This document shows positions 12,623-62,059 of a stretch of DNA of 64,000 nt, piece after piece. The position numbers and the translations under genes are program-made. The DNA lies in assembly GCA_951799425.1 (NCBI GenBank), contig OX637405.1, positions 23,945,371 to 24,009,370 of the forward strand, written 5' to 3'. A model generated the notes under the pieces. It worked only from the letters and a program-made list of their open reading frames with translations. It had not been told where the DNA came from and ran no database searches. The stretch comes from Ilex aquifolium. Taxonomy: Eukaryota; Streptophyta; Magnoliopsida; Aquifoliales; Aquifoliaceae. Position 1 is the first letter of the stretch, and every line of letters starts with the position of its first letter.

Positions 12623-13702
12623 TCAATAAAGCTCGTCTTTTGGAGATAACCAATACCTAGCTGCCGTCAATCGTAGCTTATGACCCTCCTTCTTGTCTTC
12701 GTGTAAATCACCATTCTTTAGGTAAGCAATAATTGGATCCATCCAGCTCGGTTCGGCTTCGTTACACAAAAATTCGTCAATCTTAGTATGCTGGATGCTC
12801 GGCTCGGATTGGAACTCAATTGTGAGAGCTCTTTCAGTATCCTGATCAATGGCCGAAGCCAATGAAGCAAGGGCATCGGCATGCGAATTTCTTGCTCTTC
12901 CGACCTGCTGGATAGAGTACTTCGGTATTTTGTTCAATTCCTTTTCGGCAATAGCCTGATATGTCATCATTCTTTCATCCTTAGCCGTATACTCCCATAT
13001 TATCTGATTTACAACAAGCTGTGAATCGGAGAATATTTGAAGTTTTGGTGCTCCCAACTCGGTCGCGAGCCTTACTCCGGCAATCAGGGCCTCATATTCG
13101 GCTTCGTTATTTGACGCGTGGAAGCCGAGTCTAATAGATTTTTCTAGGACACAGCCATCCAGACTCACTAGAATGAGGCCAATTCCTGCGCCCTTTTGGT
13201 TAGAAGACCCATCGACATATAGGGTCCATTTGCCCCCGAGCTCAATCACCTGATTATCATCCGCCTTGTCATTTGGTTCTGAGTTATTTTTGGGTTGAAA
13301 TTCTGCAATAAAGTCAACCATTACTTGGCCTTTAATTTCCTTTCTTGGTTCAAATACAATGTCGAACTCCCCGAGCTCGACTGCCCACTTAGCGAGGCGG
13401 CCAGATAGGTCAGCTTTTTGAAAAATGGACTTCAACGGCTGGTCGGTGAGCACGGTGATCTGATGTACCTGGAAATAGTGTCTGAGCTTTCTGGTCGAAC
13501 TAATCAGTGCAAGTGCAAGCTTTTCCAATGGTGTGTACCTTGATTCTGCGTCTAGGAGCATTTTGCTCACATAATAAATAGGCCTTAATCTTTCACGGTC
13601 GTTTCTCATCAGGGCTCCACTCACCGCGCTTTCAAATACTGCTAGGTACAGGAACAGACTTTCTTCGGGCAATGGTGTTGATAAGATTGGTGGTGAGGCC
13701 AA
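12623..13702 (-). mobile_element. RNase H plus archaeal-type RNase H of the Tat element
   Basis: The first half contains the retroelement RNase H region (YYVSKMLLDAESRYTPLEK, LTDQPLKSIFQKADLSGRL). After a linker, a second RNase H-like domain reads WTLYVDGSSNQKGAGIGL, NNEAEYEALIAGVRLA, then FSDSQLVVNQI and NSHADALASLAS. A second domain of this kind is characteristic of Tat elements. Confidence 0.88.
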
Positions 13703-13730
13703 GTATGCCTTGAGATTCAGAAACGCTTCT

Positions 13731-14852
13731 TCACACTCCTGACTCCAAAGTGCTCCCTTCAGTCCCTTGATAGATTAAAAAAAATGGTCTACACTTATCA
13801 GAGGCTCGGGATATAAATCTACCGAGCGCAGCCGCCATCCCTGTAAGTCTTTGTACTTCTTTCACGGTTCGAGGTGACTGCAACTCTTTAATAGCTTTGA
13901 CCTGATCAGGGTTTACCTCTATACCTCTATGTGTAATCAGGAATCCGAGGAACTTTCCCGAGCCCACCCCAAAGGCACATTTTGAGGCATTTAACTTCAT
14001 TTTGAATCTTCAAAGAACATCAAAAGTACCTTTCAGGTCGGCACAATGATTGTTATCCTTTCGACTCTTCACCACCATGTTGTCAATGTAGACTTCCATA
14101 GTGTTGCCTATCATGTGCGAGAACATCTTTGTTACCAACCTCTGGTATGTTGCTCCAACATTCTTTAACCCGAACGGTATCACCTTGTAACAGTATGTCC
14201 CTTCAGGAGTTATGAAGGCAGTCTTTTCTTGATCCTCTTCGGCAAGGGGGATTTGGTGATACCCTCTGTAGTCATCTAGGAAGCTCATTTGTTCATGCCC
14301 GGCAGTTGCGTCAACCAGCTGGTCTATTTTGGGCAAAAGAAAACTGTCCTTTGGGCATGCTTTGTTGAGGTCGGTGAAGTCCACACAAACTCTCCATTTC
14401 CCGTTTTTCTTGCTGACCACCACTGTGTTCGACAGCCAGGTCGGATATTGCACTCCCCTGATAGTTTGAGACTCGAGTAATCGAGTCACTTCCTCTTTTA
14501 CCGCTTCTTGATGATGAGGTGCCGACCTTCTTAGCTTTTGCTTAATTGGCTTGAAGGTCGGGTCAACATTCAGCCGGTGACACGCAACCTCGGACGATAC
14601 GCCGGGCATTTCCCTGGTGCTCCAGGCGAAGACGTCGGCATATTCTTTAAGTAGGGAAACCAATTCCTTTTGTTGTTCGGAGCTAAGAGATGTTCCTAGT
14701 AAGAAATACTTGTCCGGATCCCCATGTTTATCTAGAGGTTCTTTGGATAGAACTTCAATTGTTCGGTCTGTAACTTCTTTCTCGGCGCCTAAAGGTACTT
14801 TAGGGCTTTCCTTGTTAGCTCGGTCGTGTGAAGCTTCCGAGCTGTTGACCAT
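13731..14852 (-). mobile_element. Reverse transcriptase region of the Tat element
   Basis: It contains WRVCVDFTDLNKACPKDSF, MSFLDDYRGYHQIPLAEED, TYCYKVIPFGLKNVGATYQ and VYIDNMVVKS, followed by [20 protein letters not shown] of the thumb/connection. These are standard Ty3/gypsy reverse-transcriptase blocks in the right order. It lies directly downstream of the gag-protease block on the same strand. Confidence 0.92.
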
Positions 14853-14858
14853 TGATTG

Positions 14859-17054
14859 CTATTTTTCCCCTTCTGCAACCGACCTCTTTTCTCCCACTTC
14901 TAATTCATTTTTTGTTTTTACCGAGGCCAGTAAGCAAGTCTTGGCACTGACCTGGTCCCCTCTGATGTTTACTATTCCTTCTGAAGAAGGGAATCTCAAC
15001 ATTTGGTGGTACGTTGACGGTACTACCTTCATCTCGTGTAACCATGACCGCCCCATTATTGCGTTATAAGCTGAGACAGTATCCACTACCAGGAATTCGA
15101 TCATGACACCGACTGGCCCCGTCTTCACTGGCAGCGTGATTTTTCCTCTGGAAAGAACAGTTTTTCCACTAAAACCAATTAATGGAGTGTTGGATGGCTT
15201 GAGGTCCTCCCTCCTGAGTCCGAGTTTGTCGAAAAGGTCAATATACATAATCTCAGATGAACTTCCAAGATCAATCAAAACCCTCCTCACATCGAAGTTG
15301 GTTATCCGAAGTGTTACCACCAAAGCATCGTTGTGTGGTTGATGAATTCCATCCAAATCCTGCTCGGTGAAGCAAATGGAGTCAATCGATTCTTCCACCT
15401 TCAGCCTTTTGTTTCTTATCTCCGGAGTTAACCGAAGCTGATAGACTTCTCTTTCCTTTGCAGCTTTCTGAATGTATGCCCTAGCAGCGTTGTTCGTGGA
15501 CATCTGTGGATTTGTTGCAGCATGGATCACATCTATTACCCCTGCTGGCGTGGTCTTATCTCCCTTTAGTTCGGATCTTCCTCCGTTTGGACTGGCCTCG
15601 CTCTCGATGAACTCGGAGAGATGCCCCTCTCGGACCAGCTCCTCCAAATGCTGTTTCAGTGTTCGGCAATTTTCGGTCATATGACCGACATCACGATGAT
15701 ATGAACATCTGAAGTTAGGATTTCGTCTTGAAGGGTCTCCTATCAACTTGTTGGGCCATTTGAAGAATGACTTTCCTTTGATCTGGCCCAATATCTTGTG
15801 TATGGGCTCTTTGAACAGTGTGTTTACTCCAAGGAAAGGAGATTTCGTGTAGAACCCTTCCTTCTCGTTCTTTCTCCCTATCTCTCTGTTCGGCTCGGCC
15901 TGTTTCTCCCTGCCAAACTGCCTCCTGTTATGTTGATCCCTTACCACGTCTCTGGACAAGTCATCGTCGACTTTAACATATTTCTCGATTCTAGCCATTA
16001 ACTCTTCCAAGTCTGCGGTCGGCCTCCTTGTTAAGGATTGGTACAGGGGGTTCTCCTTTGGCAACCCGATCTTGAATGATGCCACCGCAATTTCAGGGTT
16101 GCAACCTTCTACCTCATTCATTGTCTCCCAATAACGATGAGCATACTCGCGCAAAGTCTCGTTGTTTCATTTTTTCAATGTCAGCAAAGCATCGACGTCC
16201 TTAGGCTATTTGCTACTCGTTATGAACCGAGCAGTGAACTATTCGGCTAGCTGCGACCAGCCGTCAATCGACTGCCTCGGCAAGCTGTCAAACCACTTCA
16301 TGGCCGACTCTCCAAGGCTGCTAGGAAAGATTGTGCAGAGCAGGGGTTCATTCTTCCGATGTATAGTCATCAGCTGCCTGAAATGTCTGATGTGGGAAGA
16401 TGGGTCGGTTTTTTCCATCGTAGAGTTTGAAGTTCGGAACGGTGAACTTACTCGGGATACGCCCCTTTTCAATCCATGAGGAAAAAGGGGACGAATCCGA
16501 ATCGTCTTCATACTCCCCTGTCGCTCGTCTGGCTATATCCCTAGCCGACCTCTGCTCCGGCTTCTTCAAACGGTTGTCTAACTCTTCAGCAATGTACTGC
16601 TTCCAGGAGTCCTCCTCTGAAACTCGAGGTTTTTTCTGCCGGTATTTGTTAGTTTCGATTTTTCTGAATCTGCTAAACTTCTTCTCAGGACTTTCTCGTC
16701 GGCTTTCTCGCTCACGCTTCTCTTTTCCTTTAGCAGATCGTTCTCCCTGGAATAAGATTTTTTGAACAACTTGTCATGAGCATCCAGCCGGTCCTGCATA
16801 GACTAGACTAGCTTTATCATAGAGTGATTTTCCCCCTCGGTACGAAGGGATTCACCGCGATTTCCAACTTGCTGGTTTGGATTCTTAGAAAGTCTGAAAC
16901 TTGTTGAAGATACCTCGTCATGCTCATGGGGCTTAGCAGGGCTTCCGTTAACATGCATTCTAACGTTGCCATCGGATGGAAGTGACATCGGATCGGAATT
17001 ACCCAAGGCAAGACTGCCTATAGGTGATCCAATAGCACTCCTGAGTCTTGACAT
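14859..17054 (-). mobile_element. Gag and protease region of the Tat element
   Basis: The gag core shows AMKWFDSLPRQSIDGWSQLAE and YAHRYWETMNEVEGCNP, then a CCHC-like knuckle region (YHRDVGHMTENCRTLKQHLEELVREGHL). The protease follows with RRVLIDLGSSSEIMYIDLFDKL and VVDTVSAYNAIMGRSWLHEM. The N-terminal part is spread over several short open blocks up to about 17054. Confidence 0.88.
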
Positions 17055-20811: not shown

Positions 20812-20976
20812 TAAAATTTAATATGCTTGAAACTATATACCAAATTAGAAATCATAACAGTGCCCAAAAAGATTTACTCAAAAGTCAACCTATGCCATTA
20901 GAAGAAATGTCTGTGTCTGAAGACACTATATTATTCTAAACAAAAACATCGCCACTATTTAATCAAATATTTTTTT

Positions 20977-21228
20977 GGGTCATTGGGAGGCCGGTACCTC
21001 CCAAAAAACTTAATAGGATAAAAGTACATTTTTTAAAATAATTGGGATAGAAGTACATGTGCTAAAAAAAAGTCATAAAAGCCCTTTTACCCCTACCATA
21101 AATAGTGCATACCTAATTGAATGTGAGACTTTCAAGATTAAAATGTGAGACTTTCAAGATTAGAATGTGAGATTTTCAAGATTCCTTTTGATATTTGTGT
21201 ATCATTTGAATTTTGAAATTTCATATAT

Positions 21229-21272
<44 letters not shown>

Positions 21273-21864
21273 AGTCGAAAAAGAGAAACACGATATAAAT
21301 CGTCATGCAAACAGTGTCACCATAGAGAGACACGATATAAATTGTCATGCAAACAGTGTCACCAAAGAGAGACACGATATAATGACAATGGGGGTCCAAT
21401 GACATTCCATGATGCCACTGATTGGACCCCCATTGTCATTATATCGTGTCTCTCTTTGGTGACACTGTTTGCATGACGATTTATATCGTGTCTCTCTTTG
21501 GTGACACTGTTTGCATGACGATTTATATCGTATCTCTCTTTTTCGACTCCATATATATATATATACATATATATATATGTATGTATGTATATATGAAATT
21601 TCAAAATTCAAATGATACACAAATATCAAAAGGAATCTTGAAAGTCTCACATTCTAATCTTGAAAGTCTCACATTCAATTAAGTATGCACTATTTATGAT
21701 AGGGGTAATTATGGAATACAATTTAGAAAGAATTTGAAAATGTTTTAAAATGTGTACTTATTGACAACTATTTAATGAAAAAGAGGACTTAAAGGAGGAT
21801 AAGTTTGGAGGTGGTACTTAAAGTCAACTAAGTTTTGAAAAAGGTACCCCCATCCCATTATCTC
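20977..21864. mobile_element. Fold-back MULE, near-complete palindrome
   Basis: Two arms (20977-21400 and 21421-21864) are inverted copies separated by a 20-base loop. A perfect 9-base duplication TATTTTTTT (20968-20976, 21865-21873) flanks the element, marking a Mutator-type insertion. Outer ends are GGGTCATTGGGAGG and GAGATAATGGGATG. The inner arms carry a 42-base tandem unit (starting CACGATATAAATCGTCATGC) in two full copies each, an AT microsatellite, and GTGAGACTTTCAAGATT repeats. The central 250 bases are nearly perfect. No protein is encoded. Confidence 0.9.
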
Positions 21865-21873
21865 TATTTTTTT

Positions 21874-22200
21874 CTTTGTTATTTTAAAAAATTAGTACAT
21901 CATCTTTCCTAAAAATAGACCCTAAAAACATATCAACCTATATATAAAATTAATATAGGTTACAATCACAACCCAAATCAATTATTGGACTCATCATCAC
22001 GTTGCAATCCAATGTTATAATAAAAAAAAAATTCCAACTATCGCAAAAACATGAACAATGGTGTGCGCAAATAAAGTTCATAACAAAAATCGGTGTGAAA
22101 TGTTCAATTCCAAATTTAGTTAAACAGTACATAATCACATCAATTTGATGAACAGCAAAGTACAAAAATATCAATTTGTTAATACCTTGCCTGTATTATC
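21874..22200. other. AT-rich spacer
   Basis: About 21960-22020 inversely resembles 7440-7480 (ATTGGACTCATCA against GAGTCCTATAATTGG), so it may be another scrap of the Helitron-type repeat. No gene is seen. Confidence 0.35.
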
Positions 22201-22283
22201 AAAAGTAAAGTGACTGAGTATAAGATGAGATTATGAGAATTATTAATCGTTCCATATATATACCGCATGCATCCATGACTCTT

Positions 22284-22490
22284 AATTGGTATAGATACAT
22301 GTACTTGATGCCTCGCCCAACAAAGAGACCCAAGTCCTAGTAACCCCGCTATATGGTGATTCAACATAGATTCTACATCTTGAAACCAAACCAATTTTGA
22401 AGTAGCTTTATGAAAATGAAACCATCCAGAAAAAAGCATTAGCGCTGCAAAGATCAATGCACCAATTGCGGTACAATAAAGTTCAAATGG
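22284..22490 (-). pseudogene. psaA: psaA fragment of plastid origin
   Basis: The minus strand reads [20 protein letters not shown], then [20 protein letters not shown] and [16 protein letters not shown], matching from memory a transmembrane part of photosystem I P700 apoprotein A1, which binds chlorophyll in the thylakoid. The plastid protein is about 750 residues; only about 65 are here. Several changes at conserved positions (Y to F in WFHYHK, AGHQVH to ARHQVH) show it is no longer maintained. It is a nuclear copy of organelle DNA and lies next to mitochondrial-looking sequence, so it may have passed through the mitochondrion. Confidence 0.85.
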
Positions 22491-23400
22491 TTCGTATGCA
22501 CGAGAAAAGACCTCCCCCTTCCTCTCCCTCCGCTTTAGCTCCTTATGAGAAGGGTTTAGCGAGGGCTTTCCTCTCTCTGATTCACCACCCCTAGGGCATG
22601 CAAGAGAAACTCAAAACTTAAATGTGTTAAGAAAAAAAATAACAATCAATCCTTGAACTTAATAACAATCAATCCTTGAACTTAAGAATTGTTAATATAC
22701 TGAAAGCGAGTGAAGTGACCAAATTGGGCACGAATGGTATAACAAGTAATAGGTCTTGCTCTTCTCCCCGCTTTGAGTAGGATATGTTATTCCTTACTCC
22801 ATTCCTTCCTAATGACAGGAGCGAAGGGACGCTTAAGGGCTACGCTCACTGCATAGAAAACTCGTGCATCCAAGTCCCTAATCCCTAATACCTGTCCTAG
22901 TGGCAGCAACAGAAAGACTGAAAGGTACCGATAGGAAACTTCAGACTCTCGCTGACAGTTCTAAAGGTGTGGAAGTTCATTTTAACAGCATGGGGGTACC
23001 CCCCAAACCCCCTGATGGTACAGTTTCCCCTGAAGGAAGAGGCCCTCTTAATCGCCGAGGGCTCACAAGAGAGATTAGAAGTGAATCGAAGTCCTAAATG
23101 TAGCAAAGGTAGACTATAGACCAACTCTATGGACCAATTCCCAACAAGAAAGGGGTAGGGCCTCCTCTGCTCAGGTATCTCCTTCGGGGATTTTGGGGTC
23201 ACAACTCTATTTCGCTGCCTATTTGCCTTCCTTCATTCCCCTATGAAGTAAGTCAAATCCTTGCTCATAAGTTGTTCCAATTTCTGCTATTGCAGCTGTA
23301 GTTTGGGATTTTTTAGTAGTTCTTTCTTTATAGAGTTATGGGGAAAAAGTCCCAGCAACAGCCAATCCTCGGTGGCCTGTTTGCTTTCTACGCAAAAAAT
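22491..23400. other. Probable mitochondrial-derived DNA (NUMT)
   Basis: The composition is more balanced than the surroundings and it resembles plant mitochondrial spacer DNA (GGTACCGATAGGAAACTTCA, GGAGCGAAGGGACGCTTAAG, GAGGCCCTCTTAATCGCC). It adjoins the psaA fragment, and plant mitochondrial genomes often carry plastid pieces. No complete mitochondrial gene is recognisable. The call rests on general appearance. Confidence 0.45.
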
Positions 23401-23452: not shown

Positions 23453-24186
23453 GGGAAATTTGGAGGCCGGTCCCCCTATATGGACTTATTTGGACTTAAG
23501 TCCGTCAAAGAAACTTATTTGTTATGAAGTCCGTTTTTTGTCAATTTTACCATACTATCCCTTCCTTTAGAAGTGAAATAAAACTAAAAATTAAAAACTC
23601 CTAAATCTTAGGAGTTTAACTAACATTAAAATCTTTTCTCTCTCATATCTATCTATATCCATATATAGGTTAAGAGTTTGACTAACATTAAAATTTTTCC
23701 TCTCTCTTATCTATCTATATCCATATATAAGTTAGGTGTGTGTGTGTGTGTCTATATATATATATAGTAACATTAAAAATAAAAAATAGTAACATTCAAA
23801 TACAAAAAAAAGTTATCATTTGGACACAAAAAATAATACATTTAAACACAAAAAAATAGTAACATATAAACATAAAAAAAATTGAAACATTCAATATTAA
23901 TATTTTTAAAAAATAACAACATGTTCAACAAAAATAGTAACATGCTTAATAAAAACTGTAACATACTTAACAATAATTTTCTCTCAAATTCAAAGGCAAA
24001 AAATAGTACCATTCAAACACAAAAAATAATAATATTCAAAAACAAAACAAATAGTAATATTGAATATTAATATTTAGTAAAATAATAGTAGTAACATGCT
24101 CAAAATAATAGTAACATGAACAGTAACATACTCAACAAAAACAGTAACATGAACAGTAACATAATAAAAAAAATAGTAACGTGAAT

Positions 24187-24256
<70 letters not shown>

Positions 24257-24511
24257 TTGAATTTGAATTTTAAATTTATGATGAAGATTTTATTGATATA
24301 TTTTAATTGACCTTGAATTAAGGGATAACAATTTCCAAAATAGGAAATTAATTTAACTTCCTTTCAAGGAAGGGTATTTTTGAGATAAAAAAAAAAAGTG
24401 GACTTAAGTCATTACATATAATTTTAAACATGGACTTAGCCCCTTATAAGTTTCCTTGCAGGACTTATCTCCAAACAAGTACATCTAGGAGGACTCACTT
24501 CCAATTTTCAC
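23453..24511. mobile_element. Mutator-like MITE
   Basis: The left end (GGGAAATTTGGAGGCCGGTC) and inverted right end (GTGAAAATTGGAAGTGAGTC) match for about 80 bases, including GGACTTAAGTCC/ATAAGTCC and GAAACTTAT. The flanks TTTAATTTA and TTTAATTAA form a 9-base duplication with one mismatch. The interior has an internal duplication near 23620-23740, AGTAACAT-rich repeats, and an AT-GA microsatellite at 24191-24254. No coding sequence. Confidence 0.75.
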
Positions 24512-36800: not shown

Positions 36801-37697
36801 TCACCGGTTGTTCTTCATATGTTCTCCATCTTGAACTTCAATATCCTCCAAATCTACAACGTGTGTTGTATCCGATTGACACTTTCTCAACATTGACACG
36901 TGGAACACGTCATGTACTCCTGACAACTGATCTGGTAACCGAAGTTGATACGCCATTTTGCCCACTGCTTTGATAACCTCAAATGGTCCGATGTACCTTG
37001 GAGCTAATTTTCCCTTCTTGCCAAATCTCAACACTCCCTTCTTGGGTGACACTTTGAGGAACACATAGTCCCCCTCTTGGAATTCCAAAGGTCTTCGTCT
37101 TCTATCTGCATAGCTTTTCTGTCTACTTTGTGCCGTGCGTAGTCTCTCCCGGATAAGTTGAATTTTCTCCGTAGTCTCCCGAACAATCTCTGGCCCAAAC
37201 AAACTACTTTCTCCAGCTTCCAACCAACAAGTCGGGGACCTACATGGTCTTCCATACAATGCCTCATAAGGAGCCATTCCAATACTTGTCTGATAGCTGT
37301 TGTTATATGCGAACTCCACCAGCGGCAAATGATCACTCCAACTTCCCTTGAAGTCCAACACACAAGCTCGTAGCATGTCTTCCAAAATTTGTATCACCCT
37401 CTCGGATTGGTCATCCGTTTGGGGATGAAGGGCGGTGCTAAAGTGTAACTCTGTCCCCATAGCTCGTTGTAGACTTTGCCAAAATTGTGCCACAAAACGA
37501 GAATTACGATCCGACACAATAGAGAGTGGAACTCCATGCAATCTAACAATTTGGCGAATATAAAACTTGCTCAAGGTCTCTAAAGTGTCAGTGGTCTTCA
37601 TACTCAAGAAATGAGCGGATTTGGTGAGTCTATCAACAATGACCCATAAGGCATTATGCCCGCGTAAAGTCCGTGGAAAGCCAGACACGAAATCCAT
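36801..37697 (-). mobile_element. Integrase core and C-terminus of the Tekay-type element
   Basis: The catalytic core shows ALWVIVDRLTKSAHFL, IVSDRNSRFVAQFWQ and HPQTDDQSERVIQILEDMLR. The C-terminal part has YVFLKVSPKKGVLRFGKKGK, RYIGPFEVIKAVG and HDVFHVSMLRK, typical of chromoviral integrases. Confidence 0.9.
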
Positions 37698-37736
37698 GGT
37701 GATGTGATCCCACTTCCACTCTGGGATAGGTAAGGA

Positions 37737-39083
37737 CTATAGTAATCCTCCAAGTTTATGATGCTCAATCTTCACCGGCTGACACACCGCGCACTTTGCA
37801 ATGTACTTAGCCACGTCTTGCTTCATCCCTTTCCACCAATATTGACACTTCATGTCTCTATGCATCTTAGTACTACCCGGATGTATGGAGAATTTTGAAC
37901 GATGACACTCACCCAACACTTCTTCCCTTACTTTGTCATTGTTTGGTACACATAGTCTTCCACGAAACTTTAACTCGTCATCGTGTATGGACCAATTCTC
38001 AACAATCTCATTCCTCTTTAATCTATCCCGGATAGTTTCCAACTCTGTGTCTAATTGTTGCAACTCTACAATCCATTGTCGGAGAATTGGTTGAGCTACA
38101 AGATTGAGTAAGCATGGTCGATCTCCCTGCCTATCCACCAATAGATCAAAGTCCTCCAAAGTATCAATCATCTTCCACCTATTAACAATAAGAACATTGA
38201 TTTCTCCCCGACACTTTCTGCTCAGTGCATCTGCTACTACATTAGCCTTCCCCGGATGGTAGTTGAGTGTGAAATCGTAATCTTCCAAATATTCGATCCA
38301 CCTTCTTTGTCGGAGATTCAAATCTTTCTGTGTGAATATATACTTGAGACTCTTATGATCAGAAAACACCTGAAACTTTTCTGCATACAGGTAACACCTC
38401 CACAACTTAAGAGCAAAGACCACATCGGTGAGCTCTAAGTCGTGAGTGGGATAGTTCTGCTCATGAACCTTTAGTTGTCTCGATCCATAAGCGACTACCC
38501 TACCTCCCTGAATTAGCACACATCCTAACCCTCGTAACGAAGCATCGGTGTAAACATCGTATCCTTCCCCACTGCTAGGAATAATGAGGACATGGGCTGT
38601 TGTCAACCTCTCCTTCATGGTGCGAAAGGCTTGTTCACACTCTTGAGTCCACAAGAACCTTTCCCCCTTCTTGGTGAGGCGGGTCATTGGCATCGCGAGC
38701 TTTGAGAACCCTTCCACAAACCTCCGGTAGTAACCTGCTAATCCCAGGAAACTACATACTTCGGTCACATTCCTTGGTGGTTCCCATTTCATCATGGCTT
38801 CAATCTTTGCGGGGTCAACAACTACGCCTCGTTCCGACACAACATGGCCAAGAAATTTCACTTCCTTCATCCAGAACTCGCATTTGCTCATCTTAGCATA
38901 CAACTTATGCTCTCTCAATGTTTGTAGCACAATCGAGAGATGGCGTTCATGTTCCCCTTGTGTCCGTGAATAAATCAATATATCATCAATAAACACGATA
39001 ACAAACTGATCTAGATACGGCCGTAATACCCTGTGCATCAAATCCATAAAGGCTGCTGGAGCATTAGTCAGTCTGAACGGCAT
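37737..39083 (-). mobile_element. Reverse transcriptase/RNase H region of the Tekay-type element
   Basis: Starts at the [17 protein letters not shown] block, then [14 protein letters not shown] (the polymerase YxDD-type motif) and [17 protein letters not shown]. RNase H reads [15 protein letters not shown], then [20 protein letters not shown] and [10 protein letters not shown]. An integrase zinc-binding stretch ends it ([26 protein letters not shown]). Confidence 0.93.
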
Positions 39084-40827
39084 TACTATTTAAAATCATT
39101 CACATCATGAGAGCAACTAATAAGATCCATAATTAAAGAAAATTTCATTCACCATCCATAATATCTACAACATCATTCCAAAATAATAAGCCAACACATG
39201 GCCATTACATTCAAAAGAATATGTCAAACTATTATCTCGCAGCGGAATAAGGAAAATATTAACATGAATAGTATTCTCAAAAGAAATCCCCTAGTCTAGA
39301 ACATAAAAAGAACAATTCTAGACATTCCCCTCCGGATCTACATGCCCATCAACTTGAGCTTCCCAAAGCACCTGCCCGTCAACTCCGAGCTCTTCCTCTA
39401 AACCAAAATCTGAAAAGAATATTGTTTGTAGGGGGTGAGCACTAAGCTCTGTAGGAAAATCCTTCCAAACTCGAACAAGGTTTAGAAAACATATAAAATA
39501 AGTCGGTCTCATTTCACAAATATCATATATAACTTTTGAAAGAAAACAGTGACAGTTTATCCGATCTCAAGTTTAAGCAATATCAATGAAGTAAATGAAG
39601 AAGTAAAACCAATTTCCAAAACGAACAATTCCAACAAATCACTATAAACCATAGCCAACCATTGGCACCATAAACCATAGCTCACAATGTATTTCAAACC
39701 ACAACTTGTGTCTCAACAACAATATGTATCTCAAGTATGATGTATGATATTGCATGAATAAACACATCAAGAGTATCCTGGCCCACACACACGCACCCAA
39801 TCCTCTCAAGGATATACAACTTTAGGAAGGGCGTATACCAACACATTGGCAGTGATGAATCCAACCTACGAATAGTATACTAACTCTTTGCCACGGCACC
39901 CGTGAGCGAATAGTGGTTTGGTCCTTACATGGCACCGACCCCACTACGAGTGGTAGGAAAAATTCAAACCCGCACGGAGTAAGAAACGCATCTACCCACT
40001 CTACGATACCCAATCAACGGCCACCCATGGTCATCCGAACAGCCACAAGAGATACAATACCCAACCAATTTCCTCAAGTCACAAACAAATCCAAAAAATC
40101 CCCAAATTTCATATGAAGTATTACCATAGAACCATTTAAGAAAATATACAAGAGATCATCCACAATACCATTTTGTTATTTAATAAAAAGTGCTAAAGTT
40201 TTGAAATCAAGGACAAATGAAGAATCAAGAGAAAAATCTATTTCTCTTGAAAACTAGGATTTTAAGTCAAGAAAAGAGATTTAATAGCTATTCCAACATA
40301 GCATTGTCCAAAACATGGTAATATTTACAAGAATATCAAGAATCAAGGATTTCATAGCATACATATAGGATTTAGAGTCAAAAGAATACATATATGTAAG
40401 CCCTATCCTCAATGTAAGAGAATAGGAAGAAACCCCTACCTTGAATCAAGATTTCCAAGCAAAAACCCAAGCTCTAGAGACTTCCTTCCTCCGTTTTCTT
40501 TTTTCTTTTATCTTCCCCTAGGGTTCTAAGAGGTTTGGGGTAAGAGTGGAGTGAAAGAATAGAAGAAAATAGGATGAAACGGTGTTTTAAACTCAGCAAA
40601 ATCCCGAATTTTACTGTTTTAGAATTTCTGATTTTTACCGATAGTACCGGTACAGTTTGCTCTCGGGACATCGGGGTACCGGTATGGTTTGTCCGGATTT
40701 GCCTTTTTCACCTGTTTCTCATTTTCAATCCATTCCAAACCCTTCCAAAACCAACCCAAACTTATACAACATACATTTGTATATCAAACATAGTTGGTAC
40801 AAGTTCTATTACATGTGGGGGTTTACA
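39076..40827 (-). repeat. 5' LTR of the Tekay-type element
   Basis: A near-identical direct copy of 34860-36613, followed by the second TAGAA target copy. Confidence 0.9.
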
Positions 40828-57750: not shown

Positions 57751-57871
57751 TCCAAGATAATTAGTTGCTAGTGTAGAAAATAGAAAATAGAAAATACAAA
57801 GAAATTAAGAAGCAGATGTCATCATGTGTCAGGAGTATTTTTGGAAAGATTAACAAGATATAGTGGCATAC

Positions 57872-58478
57872 CTCTGTTTCGTATATGTGCCTTATTGTGT
57901 TATTAAGGTCGTCCTTCCACACAATTAGACTGACTTGTGAAGAAAAATATACTTTCTCCAGCTTTGGCGTGCTTAGGGGTCCCAGAGAGAAGGTCTTCAT
58001 TTCAGGGCAACGACCGAGTCTGACATAATGCAATGATGGCAATTCCAAAGCCTGTTTTACCGGAAAAAAACTCCTTGGCTTGAGTAGACCGTACAGTGAC
58101 AAAGTTTCCAATTGAGGGAACATAATTTCATTCATCCTGCTCCCTTCTTCTGCTTCTTCTTCCTTTACAACAACTTCTTTCAACATTGGGCAATCTGATA
58201 TTCTCAATTCTCGGAGGTGCAACAGACCCCTAGCCATGGACGGAGAGAATAAGTTTCTCAATTTGAGTAGACCGTACAGTGACAAAGTTTCCAATTGAGG
58301 GAACATAATTTCACTCATCCTGCTCCCTTCTTCTGCTTCTTCTTCCTTTACAACAACTTCTTCCAACATTGGGCATTTATGTATTATCAATTCTCGGAGG
58401 TGCACCAGACTCCTTGCCATGGACGGAGAGAATAAGTTTCTCACTTCCACCATTCCATCGATAGTCAATTTCTTTAAG
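57872..58478 (-). CDS. LRR exon 2 of the CC-NBS-LRR gene
   Basis: From a TGCTAG acceptor this exon reads LKKLTIDGMVEVRNLFSPSM and continues with LRR units of the kind at the end of the large exon (LHLRELIIHKCPMLEEVVVK, PQLETLSLYGLLK). Its phase fits the GTAAAT donor at 58617 (AT|C), and it ends at a GTATGC donor (57871-57870) after HIYETE. An alternative acceptor 14 bases upstream (CGCAG at 58493-58494) would start FVSASLKK but in another phase. If there is no splicing, the frame runs on to a stop at 57761. The exon contains a 61-residue unit duplicated in tandem. A further 3' exon is expected but not identified. Alternatively this is a broken end of the gene. Confidence 0.6.
58080..58445 (-). 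repeat. 183-base tandem LRR duplication
   Basis: Two units with period 183 bases (61 codons) encode RNLFSPSMAR...LLHLREL...CPML(K/E)EVVVKEEEAEEGSRM. They differ at only a few positions, mainly between HLRELRISDCPMLK and HLRELIIHKCPMLE, so the duplication is recent and remains in frame. Confidence 0.9.
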
Positions 58479-58617
58479 CTAGCAGACACGAACTGCGAAA
58501 TTCATAACATCACGTTAACGTTGGACCCACATCAAAAATAGAAGAGACAAGAGTAAACTACACAAATGTCTCTTAAACTATGACCCTTGTGTCAATTAAG
58601 CCCTTAAACTAATTTAC
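58479..58617 (-). other. Predicted intron with MITE-like relic
   Basis: A GTAAATTAG donor and TAG acceptor bound 139 bases. The donor half (plus strand AGTAAACTACACAAATGTCTC, then AAACTATGACCC and GTGTCAATTAAGCCC) resembles the inverted-repeat end of the MULE at 19313. The present splice donor, and the stop codon used if unspliced, may thus come from an inserted element. Confidence 0.45.
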
Positions 58618-61529
58618 ATGTCAATATAGCTTTTGGGGCAGAATTCCTTGATCATTGGCAGATGCTGAAGGTATAGTTCAGTCAAAAGATGGAACTCAAT
58701 GCCATCAATGTTTTCACATAAACAAATGAGGCTTGGTAGATCGGATAGATCTAAATGCTCTAGTTTGGGAAATATGATCTTATCAGTTACATTTTCATCT
58801 CCTGTTTCATTTGAAAAGACTTCTTGAAGCATCTGACAATTAACTATATGAAGTTCTTGGAGTTGCATCAAACTTCTAGCTACTGATCGCGAAAAGAGAT
58901 TTCCCAATTTTGCACAGTAGTATACCCTAATATATTTGAGATTGCCAAGGAAAACATTTTGAGTGGGACCCTTCCACAAATGTGTCAGTGAAGGTAACTC
59001 ATTCAGATCTACAACGCCTAGTTCCTTGAAGGACCCCGCAGGAAGTTGGCCGTGACAAACCTCTGTTAAATTAGCCATATATGTAAGACGAAGTAAATTC
59101 AAGATTGGAAAAATACCAATGCTAGGTGAGCGCCAATTCGTTGTATTCGCAAGATACTCCAGCTTATCACAATTTGCAATTTCGAGTTCCTTCAAGTGTC
59201 GAAAACCCTCCCGATCCAACTCATTCACTACACTCTTTGAACCATCCAAATCCAAGTGTAGACATTCAGAATTCTTTATTAGTAGAATAGTCCAGTCTGG
59301 TAAACGAGTGATTGTTGGGAGGCTGACCTCCATAAATTTCTGGTAATCATTTCTTCGAACAATTGAAGTAGAATGACCAATACATATACTGTATGTTGTT
59401 AGCTTTGACCAAAAGCCTAGGCTTGTTGGCACAAGCTCCAGTTCCGGTAAGCTAATTTTTAAATTAGTGAAATTGGACAAGGACTCCAGCTCTTTGAGAA
59501 TCGCATTACTGCTTTCTTTGCCTTCTTCTTCAGCCTCCCATCTAAATTCGTACAATCTTTCCATGAATAATTCTTCCAATCCGACTAACCTTGAGATGAC
59601 ACCTGGTGCAATTGTTGTGAGATAGAAACAGTCCCTCAGCTCTAGCAACCTCAGATTACGCAATCTTCCAATTTCTTGTGGTAACACATCGATAGAGGAA
59701 CGAACAAGGCTGAGGATTTCTAGATTCACTAACCCTCCAATTAAAGTTATATCTTCAAGTGACTCGCAATTTTTTAGATGCAATGTCCGAAGGTTTTTCA
59801 GGAGTCCAAGTGATGATGGCATTGATGGTATCTCATTGTGCTGCATATCAATATCTAAAACTTTGAGGTTGCTCAGTTCCATTAAAAAACTGTCGAGTAC
59901 CTTCATTGGACATTTGTTACAAACCAACCGCAACAACTCAAGTCTTGGACACTTCCCAGGAAGCTCGGTAATCTCATCTGTTATTATTGAAATTGCAGTG
60001 TAATCTTTATATGCCTCTCTGCTTGGCCACCTCTTCAGGTTGACATCATGGCTTATCATAAAAACATGTTCACCCTTCGAAGCAATTGATATGGCCACAT
60101 CACGAATAACATCATGCATTTTGACATGCTTTGTACTGTCACTCTCTAGCAATAGGAAACGATCTTCATGCATTTTGACATTCTTTTTAAAGTCACTATC
60201 TAGCAGTAGGAAATGATCTTTAAGTTGCTCAATCAATGTGAAAACCCTGTTTCTCGCTTCTTCGACTACTTGGATGCCTCCAAAGAAATTGAGACCCATT
60301 CCATACCTAACCAGATCTTCTAACGGGATATCAAAATCTTCACGAAATAAACAACAAAGCAAAAAGAGAGACTTGCCTTCTGGGGATTCTAAACGATTGT
60401 AACTCAGCTCTAGTGGTAGGTATAAATCTCTTTGCACTTCTGGGATAGCGCTGGGGATAGATCTTTTCAATTGTACGAGTGCATCTTTCCACATAGGCTT
60501 TCTTTTATTTTTCAATGCTCTACCAACAGTAACAAGAGCAAGTGGCAAACAATTGCATTCATTTGCAACTGAGTGTGCCACATCAAGCAAGTCAGGAGCT
60601 TCAACAGAATGACCTGCCATCTCTTTGAAAAGACTCCACGCTTCGTTTTCAGATAAGGTTCCAATAGTGAAAACCTCAGCTTCCATCGCAGTGCAAACAT
60701 CTTGACTCCTTGAAGTCAATATAACTTTGGACCCATCATGATCTCTTCCCCAAGGGATTCCTAATTCCTCCAGATCGAGCCTTTTCCAAAGGTCATCTAA
60801 AATTATAAGGAATTTCTTTCCATTTAGTCTGTCATATAGCCGATCTGCTCTAACGGACAAAATCTTTTCTTCGAGTTTCAGATCTAATGATTCTGCAATT
60901 GCACATTGTATCATTTTTAGGTCTGGAAATTGAGAGACAACTACCATGACGACCTCATCAAAGAGTTTCTCTTTTTTTGCCCATTGCCGAATTTCTTTCA
61001 CCATTGTTGTCTTGCCTATCCCTCCCATTCCACATATCCCTACCACATTGACGTTGCTATTCTTCACAGCTGCCATTATTCCTTGCTTAATTGATTTTCG
61101 GGATTCGAATTCTCGGGATTTGAATTCTGCCCCCACTGGAGTTTCACGGACCGACACCCTAATGAACTTTCCATCTGTTCTGAGCGTAGTAAGAACTTGG
61201 ATCTTCTCCTTCGCAGTACTGCTCCGCCAGTAACGAGGCACCAGACAAAATGGAGACAAACACTGTTTGCTTTCTCTATCTTCATCTTCTAGAAATGTTT
61301 TTGCCTCTTGCAGGGATGTATCTGCAGTTGAACACCAGTGCGTAACATCAGGTAGGATAGTTTCTCCATTCCGTTCAGCGTCATCAATCTTTCGTTGCAC
61401 AGTATGTCTCCTAGCTTCTAGATTCCCAACTTCCTTTCCAAATTCCTGGATGTTGTTGTCATAGTTCTTCAGGGAAGAAAAGACCTCCTTGATTGGAATA
61501 ATCCCAAGGACTAGTTTAGCTACGTCCAT
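58618..61529 (-). CDS. CC-NBS-LRR disease-resistance protein, main exon
   Basis: This exon encodes an intracellular immune receptor of the At4g27190/RPS2-like CNL group. An N-terminal coiled-coil-type region (1-150) precedes the nucleotide-binding domain: P-loop GMGGIGKTT (about 167-175), kinase-2 LIILDDLW (241-248), RNBS-B GSKVILTSRS (266-275) and GLPL-like CNCLPLALV (325-333). The ARC2 motif occurs twice, as VKMHE (451-455) and VKMHDV (470-474), in back-to-back 18-residue copies. LRRs start near residue 520 and run to the end (for example LSNLKVLDIDM, LRNLRLLELRDC). All core ATP-binding motifs are intact, so the protein looks functional. The ATG at 61529 fits the family start (MDVAKLVLGI). 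Unspliced, the frame stops at 58614-58616; a GTAAAT donor at 58617 suggests joining to the LRR exon downstream. Confidence 0.92.
60111..60218 (-). repeat. 54-base tandem duplication over the MHD motif
   Basis: Residues 438-455 (DHFLLLDSDFKKNVKMHE) and 456-473 (DRFLLLESDSTKHVKMHD) are adjacent, in-frame copies. The second keeps the canonical MHD; the first has MHE. Confidence 0.93.
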
Positions 61530-62059
61530 TATGATTACTCTTCAACAACTTGATCAGCAACACCAATATCACTTGGACCTTTTCAATAAAAAAAGGAGGA
61601 TGTCAATTGCATCAATTAACGACGGTGAATTTTTCAACAAAAGAGGAATAAATCAAATGCCAACAAGCCTTAATCACCCCCGAATCCCCTTTGTTCTACT
61701 ATTCAAATTAAAATTTAGTGACTAGATGTAGGAGAGTGCCCCCCACACTGATATTTTTAGTAAAGTATCATGTCAAATTCTTCGTTCTATAGAGTTTATT
61801 CAATCACTTTACACATGATATGTGTATAGTCTAATAAGTTCTCAATAAAATAGACAACATTAATTCTGACTTGTGGATATTAATAATATTTCTTTCAATA
61901 GAAATAAATCAAATACATGTTCTTTTGCAACTTTCTACCAAAAAAAATATATATATATTTTGTAACCATGCCATCATTCGCCTGTTACTACTAATGTGGG
62001 AAAAAATCAACTATACCATTGCAAAAGATCTGATTAAAGCAACTTATTTAAAAAGTTAC
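61530..62059 (-). promoter_or_regulatory. Upstream region of the resistance gene
   Basis: About 530 AT-rich bases lie between the CNL start and the LTR of the next retroelement, so any more distal promoter was displaced when that element inserted. No definite TATA box or defence element could be assigned by eye. Confidence 0.3.

Follow-up and report, generated by a model that had tools for sequence, protein, structure and literature searches.

A young family of fold-back, probably Mutator-like, non-autonomous elements in Ilex aquifolium, with unlike ends and a palindrome most likely inherited from a founder

A stretch of 64 kb from the 800-Mb genome of Ilex aquifolium (contig OX637405.1, C15:23945371-24009370; hereafter the window) contains an 888-bp element at positions 20977-21864, for which a near-perfect 0.9-kb palindrome of Mutator type had been predicted from the sequence alone. 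Such a locus raises the question of what moves the element, its palindrome or its ends, and of how its arms came to be alike. We consider it highly probable that the element is a non-autonomous, fold-back MULE-like MITE, belonging to a young family with at least 87 loci; it would be guided by RGTMC sites under the action of a MULE transposase and would carry its palindrome as a passenger. Its features are the following:

20968-20976, no strand: left 9-bp target-site duplication (TSD) TATTTTTTT, an exact duplicate of the right TSD
20977-21086, plus strand: left end, 110 bp, outside the palindrome, with RGTMC starts at 20993, 21023 and 21052
21087-21400, plus strand: left palindrome arm, with 22-bp units, (AT)n and 42-bp units
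21120-21183, plus strand: 22-bp unit of the left arm, 2.9 copies
21223-21270, no strand: (AT)n tract of the left arm
21271-21550, no strand: 280-bp core, bordered by the two (AT)n tracts and holding the 42-bp units as two arrays (21280-21382 and 21439-21541)
21401-21420, no strand: hairpin spacer, 20 nt
21421-21708, minus strand: right palindrome arm
21551-21594, no strand: (AT)n tract of the right arm
21634-21676, minus strand: 22-bp unit of the right arm, 2.0 copies
21709-21864, minus strand: right end, 156 bp, outside the palindrome, with minus-strand RGTMC starts at 21848, 21818, 21789 and 21758
21865-21873, no strand: right 9-bp TSD TATTTTTTT, an exact duplicate of the left TSD

The best self-complementary alignment of the element covers only 622 of its 888 bases (21087-21708), with 96.3% identity over 590 aligned positions, gaps set aside, and the outermost 110 and 156 bases pair poorly with each other; the palindrome is therefore shorter than the 0.9 kb originally predicted. 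The intact 9-base duplication, the gap of 20 bases between the arms and the repetition of a 42-base unit in each arm (about 2.5 copies) were confirmed. The 22-bp units, the (AT)n tracts and the RGTMC arrays are additions to the original prediction. The number of 22-bp units differs among copies of the family and between arms. When folded in silico as RNA, a check proposed with the original prediction, the element reached -507.6 kcal/mol, compared with a mean of -180.0 kcal/mol (sd 7.0) for shuffled sequences, none of the 20 shuffles being as low. The element thus has the long inverted repeats of pairing repeated modules that characterize a fold-back build, namely 22- and 42-bp units and (AT)n tracts. 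In fold-back transposons, the inverted repeats usually extend to the very ends, although Tm1, with asymmetric ends of 7 bp, shows that this rule is loose. Here they do not reach the termini, so that "fold-back" denotes the build only and no named fold-back family is claimed.

Searching the genome for other copies, with the best 40 of 338 to 697 candidates scored in each search, we located at least 87 loci on 19 contigs (88 coordinates, of which 87 are separated by more than 3 kb), a count that is a lower bound since only these best candidates were scored. The copies are short (452-1039 bp, median 826, for 62 copies), and in the window copy, the one scanned for frames, no overlapping stop-to-stop frame exceeds 102 aa; small size, many copies and the lack of a long frame are as expected of a MITE. 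Divergence of the ends from the majority sequence has a median of 1.2% (range 0-6.8%) in 43 A-type copies and of 1.5% in 17 B-type copies, two copies with a truncated or foreign right end (L062, L066) having been dropped from this count. The window copy differs from the majority at 2 of 266 end bases. With ends about 1% from the majority, the family is young, and these values support recent activity as well as the youth predicted for the window insertion. The B-type copies form a subfamily in which a right-end variant, CTCACATCCC (for example L024, L026 and L034), goes with a different core: the match to the centre of the window element is partial (12) or absent (3) in all 15 B-type copies and present in 31 of 38 A-type copies. 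We also observed four copies about 11.6 kb apart (L032, L033, C5:3468081-3503548); the left flanks of L032 and L033 match and their TSDs are identical, so a larger, element-bearing unit is probably repeated here in tandem.

The TSDs were then read in 63 sequences (62 fetched loci and the window), 58 of which could be parsed to both ends, 52 with a perfect 9-bp TSD. Six copies added later (L087-L092) all have a perfect TSD, giving 58 of 64 parsed copies, L062 and L066 included, or 56 of 62 after removal of two copies that share flanks with others; the length of 9 bp is MULE-like. When left and right 9-mers were paired across different copies, they matched in 6 of 3080 pairs. In the 56 non-redundant perfect copies, the TSDs contain 95.6% A/T, compared with 61% in the left flanks, with T as the first base in 43 and A as the last in 36. 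None of the perfect TSDs listed is a pure TA repeat, and the targets are thus A/T-rich 9-mers and not (TA)n. The right end was not detected by score in 5 of the 63 sequences (L017, L020, L023, L030 and L039); L039 has a 9-bp TSD under a looser parse, and the tails of L017, L020 and L023 appear unrelated to the element. Two of these, L017 (C3:40702638-40704938) and L020 (C3:4505928-4508228), are truncated copies running into other sequence, presumably an R2R3-MYB-like gene in the first, as judged from a motif in its frame, and a 314-aa frame that we take to be possibly of retroelement or pararetrovirus origin in the second.

Support for insertion came from copy L060, which lies within another transposon, a relative of a second MULE-like element of the window (23453-24511, the sister element). 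When the flanks of L060 were joined over one TSD copy, they aligned without a break to window positions 23474-23636 (87%, 165 of 240 query bases) and to L079/L080 (88%), two duplicates of one place; these alignments show a related empty site, as read from sequence. The proposed search for empty sites thus gave a related one for L060. It yielded no empty allele for the window copy: the region has a near-identical duplicate 446 kb away, which carries the element too, with 0 substitutions and 4 gap columns between the two. Taken together, the loci, the perfect TSDs and the related empty site strongly support a mobile element that makes a 9-bp TSD.

Membership in the MULE superfamily is likely, because of the TSD size and the architecture (A/T-rich target, fold-back anatomy), and the element likely works like a fold-back MULE MITE. 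In the excerpts of the cited papers on which the comparisons below are based, TSDs measure 9 bp in MuTAnT (PMC4486113), 9 bp in Tm1 (PMC3169594) and 8-9 bp in Muta1 (PMC5225508). MULE domains are plentiful in the holly genome: of 1566 candidate loci, 150 were scored, and many of these have frames longer than 700 aa, so a possible source of transposase exists. None of the scored loci comes closer than 44 kb to one of the 88 family coordinates, and family-type ends were not seen in two 6-kb stretches around MULE domains (L093 and L094, chosen from groups of similar long MULE frames); an autonomous partner was thus not found among these 150 loci or in these two stretches. The predicted Mutator type fits in TSD size, target and anatomy, without a transposase linked to it in the loci and stretches covered.

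Comparison with described systems, as far as the excerpts go, places the element close to several of them without full identity. The MuTAnT MITEs of Medicago truncatula (PMC4486113) are likewise plant fold-back Mutator-like MITEs with a 9-nt TSD, a modular palindrome and TA microsatellites. However, MuTAnT inserts in (TA)n, whereas in the Ilex element (AT)n is internal and A/T-rich 9-mers are targeted; MuTAnT also has near-identical TIRs reaching the termini and a putative autonomous partner, whereas the ends of the Ilex element are unlike. The Mutator/Foldback element Tm1 of root-knot nematodes (PMC3169594) shares asymmetric termini outside the inverted repeat, a 9-bp TSD, repeated motifs near the ends and MITE-like members, so that non-inverted sequence at the very termini of MULEs is on record; its asymmetric part is just 7 bp, compared with 110 and 156 bp here, and its tandem motif is of about 14 bp, compared with pentamers every 29-32 bp. 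Muta1 and Muta5 of Aedes aegypti (PMC5225508) similarly have subterminal repeat arrays in long ends, an 8-9-bp TSD and many non-autonomous derivatives (>300 for Muta1, >200 for Muta5); their TIRs of 145 or 151 bp hold nine repeats of 12 or 15 bp, whereas the Ilex element has 3 + 4 short sites spaced by about 30 bp in unlike ends. In plant MULEs with tandem long TIRs, repeated end modules have also been argued to raise recognition by the transposase (PMC3310237), but there whole TIRs are duplicated, with 48 of 61 tomato elements showing this at both ends, whereas the Ilex element has short periodic sites whose number differs between the two ends. FARE of Arabidopsis, counted among MULEs in PMC4486113, likewise has long palindromic repeats and is likened here by description only.

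The ends themselves were analyzed in the window element and in its sister, whose ends read GGGAAATTTGGAGGCC... and ...TTTTCAC, with the TSD TTTAATTTA/TTTAATTAA (one mismatch). In the end consensus of the family, 26 of the 40 outermost positions agree between left and right. Counted from the terminus, RGTMC sites start at offsets 17/47/76 on the left and 17/47/76/107 on the right of the window element, and at 17/47/76 and 17/47/76/108 in the sister element. The latter lacks a long palindrome in its interior, and its ends are degenerate inverted repeats (71% over 96 nt, counting the flanks). With a chain defined as at least three sites at 28-32-nt spacing, both strands considered, the only RGTMC chains in the 64 kb are the four ends of these two elements, and none of 3000 shuffles per end equalled them, for a motif that was defined after inspection of these same ends. 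In the fetched stretches L009-L092, each of the 98 chains overlaps an end of one or the other family, a few ends being counted twice in overlapping stretches. Of 62 copies, 48 keep all three left sites and 35 keep all four right ones. Within the family, the sites are no better conserved than their spacers (0.982 vs 0.979 on the left, 0.956 vs 0.970 on the right), and the sister element may share the register by plain descent. Of these 62 copies, 51 have exactly 266 bases outside the palindrome, and 61 have between 264 and 276. In L022, the self-alignment extends through the ends (865 of 879 bases, 87.5%), so the ends retain some inverted likeness.

The RGTMC arrays are putative transposase-docking sites about three helical turns apart. 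We tentatively extend this to a plant MULE group with an asymmetric end code, in which RGTMC sites about three turns apart, 3 on the left and 4 on the right, begin 17 bp from the termini, a proposal that we regard as rather doubtful at present. Neither the RGTMC end register nor the end strings (searched as window letters or their reverse complement, one slightly off) matched any description found among open-licence papers. If true, such a code would imply a lopsided transposase complex; the rest of the ends would not need to be inverted repeats, and the interior would be free to become anything, a long hairpin included. According to the mechanism that we propose, a MULE transposase encoded elsewhere in the genome would recognise both ends via the RGTMC sites about 30 bp apart, excise the element and insert it into A/T-rich 9-mers. 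The palindrome would be a passenger, derived from a founder whose interior underwent a single inverted duplication, and tolerated because the ends were left alone, while tandem units and (AT)n tracts would keep changing by slippage. This reading separates the probable determinant of mobility, the unlike ends with periodic sites, from the determinant of folding, the inherited passenger palindrome.

The borders of the 280-bp core raise an alternative, in which the core would be a separate MuTAnT-type fold-back element that landed in a central (AT)n of the outer element. (AT)n does border the core on both sides, in L043 a (TA)/(TG) tract is all that occupies the centre of the outer element, L045 also lacks the core, and MuTAnT elements of about 292 bp occupy TA microsatellites, as described in the excerpt of PMC4486113. 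However, in a search with the core only, in which the best 40 of 338 candidates were scored, 15 loci were already known via the left half, and all 25 new loci have the core between outer-element sequence on both sides, the right end being truncated in L062 and L066. In addition, L043 is as young as the other copies (0.38% off the majority in its ends), so that the loss of its core is more simply explained by a deletion between the (AT)n tracts. We therefore regard the core as part of the element; the nested TA-targeting insertion found no support in these loci and is improbable.

The element could also have been retained for a host function exerted as a hairpin or siRNA locus, which we consider equally improbable. 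The predicted transcript folds very strongly, and Mu killer of maize has been proposed to silence MuDR via a hairpin RNA (PMC3440606, in excerpt). By contrast, a search of the 64-kb window against Rfam gave nothing at gathering thresholds, and the core length and the number of units vary among copies. Hairpin RNA and self-silencing by siRNA are possible consequences of the modelled fold.

To return to the passenger palindrome, gene conversion or hairpin-templated repair acting inside each copy could maintain the likeness of its arms, in line with the homogenisation suggested by the original prediction. Local copying of this kind would explain unusual microsatellite variants that are mirrored between both arms in L055 and L054. 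However, fixed differences between left and right arms run across the copies, for example a C in 45 of 47 left arms and a T in 45 of 47 right arms. The outer segment of the arms was tested in 47 of 56 non-redundant elements (L012, L013, L019, L021, L037, L042, L045, L052 and L063 were excluded, the segment not being delimitable). There, the arms of one element diverge by 3.50%, compared with 3.48% between opposite arms of different elements, and 3130 of 5000 permutations gave a value at least as low. The nearest arm, ties counted, was the same-side arm of another copy for 90 of 94 arms and the own partner for 1 of 94. Two tests nearer the centre (core, 18 elements; inner-70, 37 elements; L087-L092 in none of the three arm tests) placed the own partner closer by 0.04 and 0.07 points (3.63 vs 3.67% and 4.03 vs 4.10%), with 1378 and 823 of 5000 permutations as low, and the own partner was nearest for 3 of 36 and 0 of 74 arms. 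Homogenisation is thus mostly refuted, and very unlikely as the general cause of arm identity. Since arm differences are fixed and the own partner is no closer in the outer segment, the palindrome was most likely made once in a founder, gained its arm differences and was then multiplied, as the sequences suggest. The arm mismatches would then be mostly inherited and older than the insertion, so arm identity does not date it and can be unreliable as a clock in fold-back elements.

An assembly artefact, which the near-identical duplicate of the window 446 kb away might suggest through a mis-assembled haplotype, has a negligible probability as the origin of the palindrome, since dozens of loci share this palindrome while differing in their flanks and having TSDs of their own.

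The duplicate itself lies on the same contig: window positions 1-23450 and 24512-52756 are near-identical (99.72 and 99.93%) to C15:23499337-23550999 (L071-L076), and the similarity extends to the edge of the fetched sequence. Probes at equal offset matched at C15:23470000 (99.98%) and 23400000 (99.4%) and gave no match at C15:23300000, 23650000 and 23800000. The duplicate is either a recent segmental duplication or a misplaced haplotype. The sister element is missing from it, and a single TTTAATTAA stands in its place, which indicates an insertion or excision after the duplication. A uniform family, together with a related element that differs between near-identical copies of a region, makes a good system for the study of MULE end recognition.

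Other sequences were observed in the window. A psaA/psaB fragment (photosystem I, PF00223, E 4.6e-27) adjoins the element at 22182-22610 on the minus strand and is probably plastid DNA in the nucleus. Ty3-type polyproteins split over several frames lie on the minus strand at 12626-16166 and 36804-39089, both with reverse transcriptase and RNase H, and with integrase domains in 36804-39089 only. Finally, an NB-ARC/LRR disease-resistance-type gene is found at 57764-61541 on the minus strand, as a 975-aa frame followed by a downstream LRR frame.
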